NCBI RefSeq assembly: GCF_016765775.1
Contig: NZ_JAESVN010000006.1
Coordinates: 62,001-126,000 of the forward strand
Source: Szabonella alba
Lineage (GTDB): Bacteria > Pseudomonadota > Alphaproteobacteria > Rhodobacterales > Rhodobacteraceae
Direction of reading: 5' to 3'
Length of the DNA stretch: 64,000 nucleotides
Of this stretch, positions 9,499 to 37,070 are shown in pieces; the stretch's first letter is position 1, and each line of letters starts with the position of its first letter. Under the pieces are notes generated by a model, which saw only the letters and a list, made by a program, of their open reading frames with translations, was not told where the DNA came from and made no database searches. Position numbers and translations under genes: made by a program.

Positions 9499-9705
9499 TC
9501 AGTTCGCGGTGGCGGCTTCAGCCGCCTTCTGGTTCAGAACCGTCTTGATCCGCGCGGCTTCGCGACGGACGGTGCGCATGCGCGCGGTGTTCTCAAGCTG
9601 GCCGGTGGCCTGCTGGAAACGCAGGTTGAAGGCTTCTTTCTTCAGCGCGACCAGCTGATCACGCAATTGGTCGGGCGTCTTGGCCCGGAGTTCTTCGGCG
9701 CTCAT
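9499..9705 (-). CDS. rpmC: 50S ribosomal protein L29
   Basis: L29 is a two-helix protein at the polypeptide exit and part of the trigger-factor and SRP docking site. The start chosen is the ATG at 9705 ([14 protein letters not shown]), 68 residues. It has AAGGAA 6 nt upstream, and family members start here. An ATG six codons further upstream is less likely. Normally rplP directly precedes this gene. Here 2.1 kb with an unrelated gene, a promoter and a terminator intervene. Confidence 0.95.
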
Positions 9706-10036
9706 GCGCTTTTCCTTCTTCAAAACACCAGAGGGCCCCGGAACGGGTCACCTGCGACCTGGTGGATCATTGATAAACACGCGAATCCCGGCTGGCCGGA
9801 ATCGCGGATGGCGCTGCATACGGGAGGTGCAAGCGGAAGGCAAGGGGAAGTTGCCGTCGCGCGGGCGGCGCCAGATCAGGGAATGTGCGCACTCCAACTG
9901 TCGGGTTCGCCCTGACAAGCTGTCGTGCAAGCCTTCGGTCAAGGCAAACAGACCATGCAGCGTCGCGTCACGGTCACACCAGCACACATGCGCGCAAACC
10001 GCAACCGACGTACACGGCCTCTTTCATTGATCAAAT
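9706..10036. other. 331-bp intergenic region upstream of rpmC
   Basis: It contains no convincing gene. Short open frames here have poor composition. It holds the candidate rpmC promoter at 9815-9843 and a small imperfect inverted repeat near 9783-9804 (GAATCCCGG / CCGGAATC) within the leader. No terminator hairpin is visible after the asparagine-synthetase-like gene, which ends at 10037. Confidence 0.6.
9815..9843 (-). promoter_or_regulatory. Candidate promoter of the rpmC (spc) operon
   Basis: Minus-strand TTGCCT (9843-9838), 17-bp spacer, TATGCA (9820-9815), about 110 nt before the rpmC ATG. A promoter is needed here because a terminator follows rplP and an unrelated gene intervenes. Pattern-based. 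Confidence 0.5.
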
Positions 10037-11611
10037 TCACTGGCTGGCAGAACCGCCCTCTCTCGTCAGGCGTTCACCGATACGAACCATGGTCTTGCCA
10101 TACCAATTGCCGCCGCGTTCCTTTGCACGGTATTGAAAGGCGCGCAGGAAGGGGATCTTGGACAGCTCGGGCGCGGAAATCGCCAACAGATCGTCATTTG
10201 CCCTGTCCGTTATGCGATACTGCAAGGGAAGCGAGATCGCACGCTCAATCAGATAGCGGTCATTGAAAGGCGAGATATAGAAGTGATGGGTCAATCCATA
10301 CATCTTGCCACCCTGCGACGATGCCAGATACAACTCATTGAAAATCATGTCATAGGGTTTTGTCTTCAGCGAACCCAAGGTCTCATACCATTCCAGGTAA
10401 TGCGGCATCCAGCGTTCCGATAACTCGTCGGAATTGCCCGACCCACCTGTGATGAGCAGGCGCTTGATCCCATGCTCCGGGTCATGGGTTTCCGGTGTAA
10501 TGGCACCATTCTTCCAGTGACTCGCCTGCATGAGGTCCATCACATTGCCCCGGATATGCCAGAGCCCCGGAGGCTGATGCCGGATCAACCCGTAAACCAC
10601 TTCATTGGGTGGAGTACCCGTCATTCCGTTCGCGATCATGTAGTCGCGCGTCGCCACTCTGCGTTTGAAACGTCCATTCAACGCAGTTTTCGGGAAATCA
10701 TCGACATCATAGATGTGATAGGGAAGCCCCATCTTCTCGGCAACGAGTGAACCTACGGCACAGTCGAGTCGCGAGTTGAAATGATGTCCAAAGGCAAAAA
10801 ACTCACTGACTTGGTCAAGATGGTCGCGGCCAGCCGCCACAAGATTACGGGAGTCGCGACCCGCCGAAATCGGCATCACGCAGGGACGCGCCGAAACCAG
10901 GGTTCTCATGGTGCGCGCCAGACGATCCCGGATCTCCTCCAGCGCTGCGGGCGCTTCCTCAAGCGGGATATGAAACTCCTGTCCCTCCTTCGGCCAATGA
11001 CGGCAATGGGTGAAATCGGAAAGATCAAGATAATGGTTCGGCAAAAGCCGACGCAGCCCCGCATCCGATGTATGCTGCAATGTGTAATTGCCCCTGCCGG
11101 CGAAGATCAGTTCTTCATCAAAAAGGGGATTGGGCTCCCTGTCGCGATCAAGGGCAAGCAAGACCGTAGATGCAACCGTCCGCGTCTTCGGGTCATAGAC
11201 CGCGCCAAGCGCCGACACGGGGTCGATATAGATCCGTGCCTTGGTTCCACTTGTGATCATGACGATGTAGCGGCCTGCAAGCCCTTCGATCAGTCCTTCT
11301 GCCTTCGATAGAAAGGACTTCTCCGAGTTGGAAACAGCCAGATTGAGCGAGGATTCGATCAACCCACCATCAGGATGCAATGCGGCACCAAGCACCCAGC
11401 CAACGGCTCGCTGTCTGGAATCAAGGATCGGCGTCAAGGGCAAGGCCGAACCGGAATACAAGGTCCAATCGGAACCGAGCCGCTGGATTGAGAAACCGGG
11501 AAGCCGAAGATCGGGATTTTTGCTGAGCAGGAACTGATACTTGAACAATGACGTGAAATCGGCACCCGCAGCGATACATTCCTTCTCTGCGGTGGTCATT
11601 CCCTTCAGCAT
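10037..11611 (-). CDS. Asparagine-synthetase-like protein lacking the glutaminase cysteine
   Basis: A 524-residue protein from the ATG at 11611 (GAGGA 6 nt upstream). ATGs at 11617 and 11599 are alternatives. The first 200 residues resemble a degenerate class-II amidotransferase fold (LAGRYIVMITSG, IDPVSALGAVYD, LLPNHYLDL) but lack the N-terminal catalytic cysteine. A PP-loop ATP-pyrophosphatase motif, SAGRDSR at about 249-255, stands where asparagine synthetases have SGGxDS. This suggests ATP-dependent adenylation of a carboxyl group, as in cysteine-less relatives such as lasso-peptide cyclases. The substrate is unknown. The gene sits alone between rplP and rpmC. Its base composition is lower in G+C than the neighbours: I count 29/60 at 10261-10320 and 25/60 at 10321-10380, against 44/60 at 12241-12300 in rpsC. 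Horizontal acquisition is likely. The family assignment is moderately sure and the function is not known. Confidence 0.7.
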   Translation of the reverse strand: MLKGMTTAEKECIAAGADFTSLFKYQFLLSKNPDLRLPGFSIQRLGSDWTLYSGSALPLTPILDSRQRAVGWVLGAALHPDGGLIESSLNLAVSNSEKSFLSKAEGLIEGLAGRYIVMITSGTKARIYIDPVSALGAVYDPKTRTVASTVLLALDRDREPNPLFDEELIFAGRGNYTLQHTSDAGLRRLLPNHYLDLSDFTHCRHWPKEGQEFHIPLEEAPAALEEIRDRLARTMRTLVSARPCVMPISAGRDSRNLVAAGRDHLDQVSEFFAFGHHFNSRLDCAVGSLVAEKMGLPYHIYDVDDFPKTALNGRFKRRVATRDYMIANGMTGTPPNEVVYGLIRHQPPGLWHIRGNVMDLMQASHWKNGAITPETHDPEHGIKRLLITGGSGNSDELSERWMPHYLEWYETLGSLKTKPYDMIFNELYLASSQGGKMYGLTHHFYISPFNDRYLIERAISLPLQYRITDRANDDLLAISAPELSKIPFLRAFQYRAKERGGNWYGKTMVRIGERLTREGGSASQ

Positions 11612-11647
11612 AAACATTCCTCACTCATCCCTACCCCGGCAAAGGGG

Positions 11648-11676
11648 AATACAAATCAAACCTCTGTTCCGGTCAA
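11648..11676 (-). promoter_or_regulatory. Candidate promoter of the asparagine-synthetase-like gene
   Basis: Minus-strand TTGACC (11676-11671), 17-bp spacer, TGTATT (11653-11648), about 37 nt before the chosen ATG. It lies downstream of the rplP terminator, so the gene is probably an independent unit. Confidence 0.45.
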
Positions 11677-11750
11677 TGATAGATCAGTTCCCGGACCCCG
11701 GCAATCACCAGCCGGAGGCACGCAAGCCTTCCGTGCACCCGTAGAACGAA

Positions 11751-11780
11751 ACACGCCCGCCGGATGACCGGCGGGCGTGT
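11751..11780 (-). terminator. Rho-independent terminator after rplP
   Basis: A perfect 13-bp stem (ACACGCCCGCCGG / CCGGCGGGCGTGT) with a 4-nt loop, followed on the minus strand by TTCGTTCTAC. Counting the stem end, the tail reads GTGTTTCGTTCT. It starts 22 bp after the rplP stop and closes the S10-type unit. Confidence 0.75.
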
Positions 11781-11801
11781 TAAATGCATTCTTCCAGGCA
11801 G

Positions 11802-12215
11802 TCACCAGTCTTCGCGAACCACGACGCGGGTGGTGACCGGAAGTTTCATCGCGCCAAGACGCAGGGCCTCACGCGCGATGACTTCGTTCACGCCGTCGAT
11901 CTCGAACATGACGCGACCGGGTTTGACCTTGGCCGCCCAGTAATCGGTCGAGCCCTTGCCTTTACCCATCCGAACCTCGGTCGGTTTCGACGAGACCGGA
12001 ACATCCGGGAAAATCCGGATCCAGACCCGGCCCTGACGTTTCATGTGGCGGGTGATCGCGCGGCGGGCCGCTTCGATCTGCCGCGCGGTGACGCGCTCGG
12101 GCTCGGTCGCCTTGAGACCATAGGTGCCGAAGTTCAGAAGGAACCCGCCCTTGGCCTCGCCGTGGATCCGGCCCTTGTGCTGTTTGCGGAACTTCGTCCG
12201 TTTAGGTTGCAGCAT
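11802..12215 (-). CDS. rplP: 50S ribosomal protein L16
   Basis: L16 helps organise the A-site tRNA elbow contact. It has 137 residues, normal. The N-terminus [19 protein letters not shown] and the core [28 protein letters not shown] (about 67-94) are diagnostic. It follows rpsC after 12 bp and is the last gene before a strong terminator. Confidence 0.98.
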
Positions 12216-14440: not shown

Positions 14441-14464
14441 GCTCTCTGTCTTCCGTCAGCTTGA

Positions 14465-14485
14465 GGATCGCATCAGATGCGATCC
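14465..14485. promoter_or_regulatory. Perfect 21-nt palindrome in the rplB leader
   Basis: Arms GGATCGCATC and GATGCGATCC flank a single central base. It lies 25 bp upstream of the rplB ATG and downstream of the rplW terminator. As DNA it has the symmetry of an operator. As RNA it would form a short hairpin next to the ribosome binding site. No bound factor is known to me. Confidence 0.4.
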
Positions 14486-14518
14486 GGGTGTGTAGGGCTC
14501 CGTAGATCCCCGATTGAA

Positions 14519-16737: not shown

Positions 16738-17913
16738 TTATTCGATGATTTTCGAGACGACGCCCGCGCCGACGGTACGGCCGCCTTCACGGATGGCGAA
16801 GCGCAGCTTCTCTTCCATCGCGATCGGCGCGATGAGCGAGACGTTGAACTTCAGGTTGTCGCCCGGCATCACCATTTCGGTGCCTTCCGGCAGTTCCACC
16901 GTGCCCGTCACGTCGGTCGTGCGGAAGTAGAATTGCGGACGGTAGTTCGCGAAGAACGGCGTGTGACGGCCGCCTTCTTCCTTGGTCAGGATATAGGCCT
17001 CGGCCTCGAACTTCGTATGCGGCTTCACCGAGCCGGGCTTGCACAGCACCTGGCCGCGCTCGATGCCCTCACGGTCGACACCGCGCAGCAGAAGGCCCAC
17101 ATTGTCGCCCGCCTCGCCCTGATCCAGCAGCTTGCGGAACATCTCGACGCCGGTGCAGACGGTTTTCTTGTTCGGGCGGATGCCGACAATCTCGACTTCC
17201 TCGCCGACCTTGACCACGCCACGCTCGATCCGGCCGGTGGCAACCGTGCCGCGGCCCGAGATCGAGAACACGTCCTCGACCGGCATCAGGAAGGGCTGGT
17301 CGACCGCACGGGCCGGTGTCGGGATGTATTCATCCACAGCCGCGATCAGCGCACGGATCGAGTTCTCGCCGATTTCCGGATCACGGCCTTCCATCGCCGC
17401 CAGCGCCGAACCCTTGATGATCGGGATATCGTCGCCGGGATAGTCGTAGGAGGACAGAAGCTCGCGGATTTCCATTTCCACCAGTTCGATCAGTTCCTCG
17501 TCATCCACCTGATCGACCTTGTTCATGTAGACGACCATGTAGGGAATGCCGACCTGACGGCCCAGCAGGATGTGTTCGCGCGTCTGCGGCATCGGGCCGT
17601 CAGCGGCGTTCACAACCAGGATCGCGCCATCCATCTGCGCCGCACCCGTGATCATGTTCTTCACATAGTCGGCGTGGCCGGGGCAGTCGACATGCGCATA
17701 GTGACGGTTCGCGGATTCGTATTCCACATGCGCCGTCGAGATCGTGATCCCGCGCGCCTTCTCTTCCGGCGCGCCGTCGATCTGGTCATAGGCCCGGAAT
17801 TCGCCGAAATACTTCGTGATCGCCGCCGTCAGCGTCGTCTTGCCATGGTCAACGTGACCGATGGTCCCGATGTTAACATGCGGTTTGTTGCGTTCAAACT
17901 TTGCCTTGGCCAT
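16738..17913 (-). CDS. tufA: Elongation factor Tu, copy 1 (in str operon)
   Basis: EF-Tu delivers aminoacyl-tRNA to the ribosome as a GTP complex. It has 391 residues. The G1 motif [10 protein letters not shown] is at about 19-28, DCPGHADY at about 80-87 and NKVD near 135, followed by beta-barrel domains 2 and 3. The protein is identical to the copy at 35839-37014, and the DNA appears identical from the start codon to about the last 12 codons. It follows fusA after 88 bp holding a palindromic repeat. The stop is TAA. Confidence 0.98.
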
Positions 17914-35838: not shown

Positions 35839-37014
35839 TCATTCGATGATCTTGGAAACCACCCCTGCTCCAACCGTACGGCCGCCTTCACGGATGGCGA
35901 AGCGCAGCTTCTCTTCCATCGCGATCGGCGCGATGAGCGAGACGTTGAACTTCAGGTTGTCGCCCGGCATCACCATTTCGGTGCCTTCCGGCAGTTCCAC
36001 CGTGCCCGTCACGTCGGTCGTGCGGAAGTAGAATTGCGGACGGTAGTTCGCGAAGAACGGCGTGTGACGGCCGCCTTCTTCCTTGGTCAGGATATAGGCC
36101 TCGGCCTCGAACTTCGTATGCGGCTTCACCGAGCCGGGCTTGCACAGCACCTGGCCGCGCTCGATGCCCTCACGGTCGACACCGCGCAGCAGAAGGCCCA
36201 CATTGTCGCCCGCCTCGCCCTGATCCAGCAGCTTGCGGAACATCTCGACGCCGGTGCAGACGGTTTTCTTGTTCGGGCGGATGCCGACAATCTCGACTTC
36301 CTCGCCGACCTTGACCACGCCACGCTCGATCCGGCCGGTGGCAACCGTGCCGCGGCCCGAGATCGAGAACACGTCCTCGACCGGCATCAGGAAGGGCTGG
36401 TCGACCGCACGGGCCGGTGTCGGGATGTATTCATCCACAGCCGCGATCAGCGCACGGATCGAGTTCTCGCCGATTTCCGGATCACGGCCTTCCATCGCCG
36501 CCAGCGCCGAACCCTTGATGATCGGGATATCGTCGCCGGGATAGTCGTAGGAGGACAGAAGCTCGCGGATTTCCATTTCCACCAGTTCGATCAGTTCCTC
36601 GTCATCCACCTGATCGACCTTGTTCATGTAGACGACCATGTAGGGAATGCCGACCTGACGGCCCAGCAGGATGTGTTCGCGCGTCTGCGGCATCGGGCCG
36701 TCAGCGGCGTTCACAACCAGGATCGCGCCATCCATCTGCGCCGCACCCGTGATCATGTTCTTCACATAGTCGGCGTGGCCGGGGCAGTCGACATGCGCAT
36801 AGTGACGGTTCGCGGATTCGTATTCCACATGCGCCGTCGAGATCGTGATCCCGCGCGCCTTCTCTTCCGGCGCGCCGTCGATCTGGTCATAGGCCCGGAA
36901 TTCGCCGAAATACTTCGTGATCGCCGCCGTCAGCGTCGTCTTGCCATGGTCAACGTGACCGATGGTCCCGATGTTAACATGCGGTTTGTTGCGTTCAAAC
37001 TTTGCCTTGGCCAT
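35839..37014 (-). CDS. tufB: Elongation factor Tu, copy 2 with recoded 3' end
   Basis: The encoded 391-residue protein is identical to tufA and the DNA appears identical over almost the whole gene, a sign of gene conversion. In the last 12 codons nearly every codon is a different synonym: tufA ends GTCGTCTCGAAAATC..TAA while this gene ends GTGGTTTCCAAGATC..TGA. An ATG five codons upstream (37029) is in frame, but the family start at 37014 is preferred. It has its own promoter, and a displaced tuf tail and a terminator follow. A second tuf next to tRNA-Trp-secE is a common proteobacterial arrangement. Confidence 0.97.
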
Positions 37015-37070
37015 AGCAGGGCGCCTCATCAGTTAGGGGGCCACAGCGCGGCCCGTTCCACACGCGGCGC

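Follow-up and report, generated by a model that had tools for sequence, protein, structure and literature searches.

Few bacterial operons are as highly conserved as the S10 operon. In the family Rhodobacteraceae we find it opened between rplP and rpmC; and the asparagine-synthetase-like (AsnB-like) gene that occupies this position in Szabonella alba is very probably single-gene cargo in a lineage-specific, insulated break of the operon. The enzyme is thus cargo of a known superfamily; the finding lies in the operon around it, split and insulated and with a covarying leader before rpmC. Comparison of sequences across the family demonstrates the opening, a recurring predicted terminator, promoter and covarying leader, and a turnover of occupants. 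We propose that the operon would have been cut between rplP and rpmC in an ancestor of the family, such that the upstream half would now stop at a terminator and the downstream half would start from a promoter and folded leader of its own; genes would then have been gained and lost repeatedly in the gap. With a predicted promoter and leader placed before the downstream half, DNA in the gap need not disturb ribosomal protein synthesis.

The inserted gene and its enzyme

The window—the whole stretch of 64,000 nucleotides that was analysed—sits within a 254-kb contig, making a contig-end artefact unlikely; its ORFs were listed from 60 amino acids upwards. Its relevant features, all on the minus strand and given here from rplP towards rpmC, are as follows.

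about 11802-12215, minus strand: rplP (uL16), with which the upstream half of the split S10 operon closes
11750-11781, minus strand: hairpin resembling an intrinsic terminator, 3' of rplP; 14-bp stem, 4-nt loop, short T-rich tail
11676-11704, minus strand: promoter-like site TTGCCG-N17-TATCAT, 5' of the AsnB-like gene; at chance level
10037-11617, minus strand: AsnB / beta-lactam-synthetase-like gene, the probable cargo; ORF of 526 amino acids, low G+C
10847-10867, minus strand: PP-loop codons SAGRDSR, residues 251-257; [ST][AG]Gx[DE][ST]R in 21/21 aligned sequences
9815-9843, minus strand: promoter-like site TTGCCT-N17-TATGCA of the downstream half; its end lies 109 nt upstream of the rpmC start
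9705-9783, minus strand: predicted structured leader RNA of rpmC; match to covariance model R1 at 9705-9779 (62.0 bits, E 5.8e-15, the window sequence being part of the model's training set)
9499-9705, minus strand: rpmC (uL29), with which the downstream half opens

The whole insert between rplP and rpmC spans 9706-11801, with a 331-nt spacer between the AsnB-like ORF and rpmC; the product of rplP is 94-95% identical to its five best matches in other family genomes. The initial annotation had placed a 524-codon gene at this position, which stands, save that the gene has 526 codons. Its low G+C was also borne out (55.0%, where the remainder of the window has 62.6%, and the lowest among 43 ORFs compared, some of them shadow ORFs), the two lines counted earlier (48% and 42%) falling under the gene average; GC3 is 0.63 against a mean of 0.74, the fourth lowest. 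The strong terminator described after rplP is a perfect 14-bp stem (arms 11750-11763 and 11768-11781; folding z -7.2). The gene's own promoter did not survive scrutiny: TTGCCG-17-TATCAT is found once where 1.0 is expected by chance.

By its sequence, the enzyme is a degenerate, remote relative of the AsnB / beta-lactam synthetase superfamily with an apparently dead glutaminase half. Searched singly, it matches Pfam Asn_synthase at E 0.25 and NCBIfam TIGR01536 at E 5e-4 (19.1 bits against a cut-off of 267.1; residues 179-305, PP-loop included), and no PDB chain. A profile of 21 homologues run against solved structures returned beta-lactam synthetase first (1jgt, E 2.1e-4, in two stretches), then 7ylz (hydroxyamidotransferase; 8.8e-4), 3bl5 (QueC; 1.1e-3) and 1q15 (CarA; 1.6e-3), all of them weak matches; the profile check thus leads to the beta-lactam synthetase superfamily, as first suspected, and not to a different family. 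At E 0.01, 8 of the 21 sequences in the profile match TIGR01536 and 5/21 match PF00733, whilst single members match QueC or LarE models; a structure prediction from two sequences (the window's and its closest homologue's) reached a mean pLDDT of 30.

The PP-loop SAGRDSR was correctly described as intact, and the pattern [ST][AG]Gx[DE][ST]R is kept in 21/21 sequences, as is expected of an N-type ATP pyrophosphatase (SGGxDS). The glutaminase cysteine is indeed missing: residue 2 is Phe in the window, and 0/21 sequences carry Cys at position 2 with homologue start codons as chosen by script. An identity as asparagine synthetase B was rejected on the lack of Cys2 and on a score far below the TIGR01536 cut-off. 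Most likely, then, this is an amide-forming enzyme of the ATP-pyrophosphatase type whose glutaminase half is dead. Such a protein would adenylate a carboxylate, which an amine of its substrate would then attack; adenylation without the use of glutamine is plausible. One might guess, on weak grounds, at a cell-surface or secreted compound as the substrate.

With E 1e-3 as the limit, 22/295 family genomes have a homologue, each of them of another genus. The alignment took in 19 of the 21 from other genomes, with L021 and L022 omitted as short weak matches; these 19 show 21-36% identity to the window protein; the closest homologue, L023 (assembly UBA6796), shows about 67-68%. Among the 21 other genomes with a homologue, 18 carry a junction marker (rplP, rpmC or the leader) on another contig, and the remaining three have no listed marker and are unplaced. 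Rather than vertically inherited orthologues at the same position in all relatives, the outcome that would have spoken against an insertion, we therefore find a gene in 22/295 genomes that in 18/21 sits elsewhere. L023 has nadC and GSCFA/SGNH-like genes as neighbours (names by eye); the junction of UBA6796 is empty, yet keeps the hairpin, the promoter-like site (both by eye) and the leader. Among the neighbourhoods listed, no common partner gene was seen by eye; some listed homologues lie near glycosyltransferase-like or sulfotransferase-like genes, which we do not count as evidence.

These distributions bear on whether the enzyme serves the ribosome, amidating or otherwise modifying uL16, uL29 or another product of the locus. 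Its place between rplP and rpmC would suit such a role; against this, the marker lies on another contig in most homologue genomes (18/21, with three lacking a listed marker), L023 sits beside nadC and GSCFA/SGNH-like genes, 273/295 genomes have no homologue at E 1e-3, and the junction is mostly filled by other genes, leaving this reading highly improbable. Nor do we find support for the view, implied by the initial annotation, that the enzyme makes the site special: the junction stands open across the family genomes sampled, most often with other genes in it, so that nothing here calls for the enzyme to act on the ribosome.

A family-wide opening between rplP and rpmC

Of 295 family genomes, 267 gave an rplP hit and 276 an rpmC hit; with 150 places listed per gene, 92 genomes were in both lists, and gaps were measured in the 80 with both genes on the same contig and strand (12/92, on different contigs or strands, being excluded). 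Among these 80 the gap runs from 78 to 16,889 nt with a median of 998; 48 gaps are at least 600 nt (‘loaded’) and 32 are below 600 nt (‘empty’). Outside the family the two genes are adjacent, as had been stated, with a gap of 17-83 nt (median 28) in 88/88 genomes, these being what remained of 106 genomes drawn from the class, 90 with both genes, after removal of the window and one family member; the insert is thus far from chance. Of the measurable family gaps, 79/80 are wider than 83 nt. The exception, G161, has a gap of 78 nt, which is within the range of the other families, and by the rules used it lacks both the leader motif and a terminator. The control junction, rpsC-rplP, looks closed in 30/30 family loci: 29 alignments end within 65 nt, and the other (L029), 56 residues short, ends at 170 nt. 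The opening is therefore a property of this family and of this junction.

Two genomes show rearrangement at the same point. G033 (L133) has rpmC on the strand opposite to rplP and 5 kb away from it, and the two genes of G044 are 206 kb apart (rplP at C1:2757669, rpmC at C1:2551273); the operon halves have thus been separated or inverted at this break. As a separate observation, the window holds two tuf genes, at 16738-17913 and 35839-37029 (minus strand), about 18 kb apart and in agreement at the residues shown; many draft contigs of relatives start about 4.5 kb before rplP, perhaps at this tuf repeat.

The gaps hold unrelated genes. Pfam families found there include Cu-Zn superoxide dismutase, CobT-like, EamA transporter, CAP12/TIR effector, GmrSD and Fic, together with DMSP lyase, hemerythrin, methyltransferases and metabolic enzymes, and further candidate defence proteins come from PADLOC. 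The initial annotation had named unrelated cargo at this position in relatives as the mark of an insertion hotspot, and that is what the 48 loaded and 32 empty junctions display. On a tree of the 80 genomes built from the upstream ribosomal genes, the states empty, oxygenase and other require at least 25 changes, where the least possible is 2 and shuffled labels give 34.1; because the states cluster more than shuffled labels do, much of the junction state is inherited. The sister of the window's genome, G165, has an oxygenase and a CobT-like gene at its junction (support 99, with G165 filling only 35% of alignment columns). The largest insert, 16.9 kb between rplP and rpmC, is that of L083; set A2, which holds L083 ORFs among others, gave matches to trimethylamine methyltransferase, aldehyde dehydrogenase and DHDPS, whose membership in the L083 insert is presumed.

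How cargo arrives can be judged from what accompanies it. Were a site-specific mobile element to target the rplP terminator or the rpmC leader, carrying cargo with it, the reuse of one site many times would be accounted for, and terminators are the targets of some mobile elements. Yet no integrase or transposase occurs in the 14 families of set A1 or in the best 25 of the 46 families of set A2, and direct repeats in the window's insert reach 87% at best, with none of them framing it; we regard such an element as quite improbable. Cargo would instead enter by recombination between conserved flanks, without a dedicated integrase.

The junction has a recurring order: after rplP a predicted terminator, then cargo, a promoter-like site, and an RNA leader that reaches to where rpmC begins. 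In 64/80 gaps a hairpin rich in G+C, followed by a T-rich stretch, lies within 150 nt of the rplP stop (shuffle mean 1.05), and hexamers resembling TTGCCA-N17-TATACG, at 9 or more matches of 12, lie 60-210 nt before rpmC in 52 of the 67 gaps long enough for the test (shuffle mean 2.3), the consensus having been read from the same sequences and both sets of shuffles preserving mononucleotides only. The spacing is 17 nt in 51 of these 52 sites, and the window's own TTGCCT-N17-TATGCA matches 9 of 12 positions. By the rules used, the terminator is missing in 16/80 junctions and the promoter in 15/67. The two elements would act as terminator and promoter in cells.

The rpmC leader and the oxygenase

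Alignment of the region before rpmC (MAFFT, RNAalifold) gives one long hairpin with side bulges and 13 pairs, 9 of which carry compensatory double changes; the model was made from 70/80 loci, nine without the motif and one with its stem further upstream having been excluded first. In a 15-pair version of the structure, named by hand, 93.2% of cells are paired, against 84.1% when shuffled and 37-51% when slid, and double-change cells number 101 against 30.3. The compensatory changes point to selection on pairing. Folded alone, the window's leader does no better than its shuffles (z 0.07 for 78 nt, -0.56 for 104 nt and 0.90 for 58 nt), and the case for the leader therefore lies in comparison between genomes.

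The covariance model R1 matches 240/295 family genomes at E 0.01, a figure that includes the 70 training genomes and in which about 3 of 295 chance matches are possible (two are at E 0.005). Of 149 leader places listed, 91 share contig and strand with a listed rpmC; the match ends between -3 and +47 nt from the hit to rpmC in all 91, and no more than 7 nt from it in 90. Across 289 genomes of the class, R1 gives five matches: four family members and L162 (E 0.004). The last was rejected as a leader outside the family, as it lies inside a coding frame—a sigma-54-type response regulator by eye—and is taken as chance. Rfam holds no match to the leader at gathering score, and relaxing the threshold to E 10 adds nothing but two matches at chance level, both located outside the leader.

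A covarying structure before a ribosomal protein gene, one feature by which ribosomal leaders are recognised, is thus present at rpmC. One of the ribosomal proteins encoded in the same operon would bind this leader, and the leader would control translation of rpmC and the genes that follow.

Three further observations concern RNA structure in this region. The window has an additional hairpin at 9781-9805 (minus strand), after the predicted rpmC promoter and before the conserved leader, and an inverted sequence similar to it was seen by eye in some relatives. Before rplB, the known L2-Alphaproteobacteria leader RF03142 is found at 14443-14511 (minus strand; 51.2 bits). Eight of the 80 junctions, all empty and of 94-127 nt (L102, L103, L104, L105, L106, L107, L111 and L112), have in common a short conserved leader unlike the first, with GACTTCTGAT before rpmC and, in most, GTTGGAAAAGC upstream; it may represent a second class of leader.

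The commonest occupant of the gap is a 2OG-Fe(II) oxygenase (PF13759), present in 36/48 loaded gaps and 0/32 small ones, as counted by HMM over six frames, greedy ORF calling having missed copies behind antisense ORFs. Twenty-five of the 36 run along rplP and 11 are opposed, an orientation that requires at least six changes on the tree. All four junction oxygenases scanned (L058, L061, L070 and L078) match TIGR02466 only. At E 1e-10, PF13759 is found in 201/295 family genomes, and is absent from the window's genome and from 28/32 empty-site genomes; among 150 places listed, 136 have a listed marker in the genome, of which 120 are either inside the rplP-rpmC gap or no more than 10 kb from one of the two genes, with 16 elsewhere.

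This prevalence invites a simpler account, in which the split is the by-product of one ancestral oxygenase insertion beside rplP, followed by decay or replacement, with the leader an ordinary untranslated region devoid of regulatory work. The oxygenase's lead among occupants (36/48) and its absence from the genomes of most empty sites (28/32 at E 1e-10) agree with this; the compensatory changes in the leader, which point to selection on its pairing, and the six or more changes of orientation do not, and we think the account unlikely.

Under a trait model on the same 80-genome tree, presence of the oxygenase is associated with uL16 residues 68, 76, 79 and 113, in the neighbourhood of R82. These are 4/36 sites at p<0.01 (null mean 0.33, P 0.0125), with 9 sites at <0.05 (P 0.03), the P values being uncorrected for the six proteins compared and the question having arisen from the data. 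No excess is seen at uL16 fourfold sites (0/37) or in uS3 (0/59), uL22 (0/36), uS19 (0/18), uL2 (1/63) or uL29 (1/29); single-site sign tests on independent pairs gave, among those listed, median p of 0.03-0.7. An earlier uL16 test (7/39 sites), which allowed a choice of residue for the observed data but none for the null, overstated the effect and was set aside. The arginine R82 of uL16 is invariant (80/80), and corresponds by the EVRMGKGKG motif to the arginine hydroxylated by YcfD. PF08007, the YcfD-type domain, is found in 1/13 family genomes and in none of the 18 junction oxygenases of set A1; a YcfD-type JmjC_2 hydroxylase was accordingly discarded as an identity for the junction enzyme, which in 4/4 scanned copies matches TIGR02466 only.

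Taken furthest, the break would be a point of both control and modification: through an uncatalogued leader a protein of the downstream half would regulate that half, and the TIGR02466 oxygenase would be a ribosomal oxygenase that hydroxylates uL16 on R82 or a residue close to it, so that the YcfD modification would have been invented twice. The genome of the window would have lost its oxygenase and taken up a foreign amide-forming enzyme instead. We offer this combined scheme tentatively, judging it possible but on balance rather unlikely; the ribosomal leader and the uL16 oxygenase are leads, not proofs. The linked oxygenase is a testable candidate for ribosome modification.

Relation to known systems

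Among the titles and abstract openings listed from the open-access literature, a body from which subscription papers are mostly absent, none describes the split, the leader or the oxygenase link. With about 300 genera, the family's split S10 operon allows operon break-up, the making of new ribosomal leaders and gene uptake beside essential genes to be studied in one series.

Beta-lactam synthetase and the carbapenam synthetase CarA are not known to have a glutaminase cysteine. The window enzyme shares with both (1jgt and 1q15) the PP-loop half and an N-terminal half without that cysteine, but the similarity is at E of only 2e-4 and 1.6e-3, and its gene stands alone between ribosomal genes. With asparagine synthetase B it shares a weak match around the PP-loop, and differs from it in having no Cys2 and in the Arg that follows DS in the loop.

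The rpmC leader resembles the ribosomal protein leaders of PMC7247131, in the part of that work drawn on here, in being a short covarying hairpin directly before its gene and confined to one lineage, and differs from them in having no meaningful Rfam match. Table 1 of PMC7247131 lists the alphaproteobacterial L2 leader; its main text makes no mention of rpmC, L29 or Rhodobacter.

YcfD is the arginyl hydroxylase of uL16 R81/R82, according to the portion of PMC5862935 consulted. It and the junction enzyme are both 2OG oxygenases, and uL16 would be their shared target should the lead prove right; YcfD is of the JmjC type, whereas the junction enzyme belongs to PF13759/TIGR02466.

The nearest precedent for the break itself is in Gammaproteobacteria and Bacilli, where gene insertions into the ribosomal operon cluster loosen selection on operon linkage (PMC8046335, sections available to us), a loosening akin to the rplP-rpmC break of this family. 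Those insertions, in the same sections, are single ancestral events, three of the four discussed lying between operons, whereas here one junction internal to the S10 operon has been refilled family-wide with unrelated genes.
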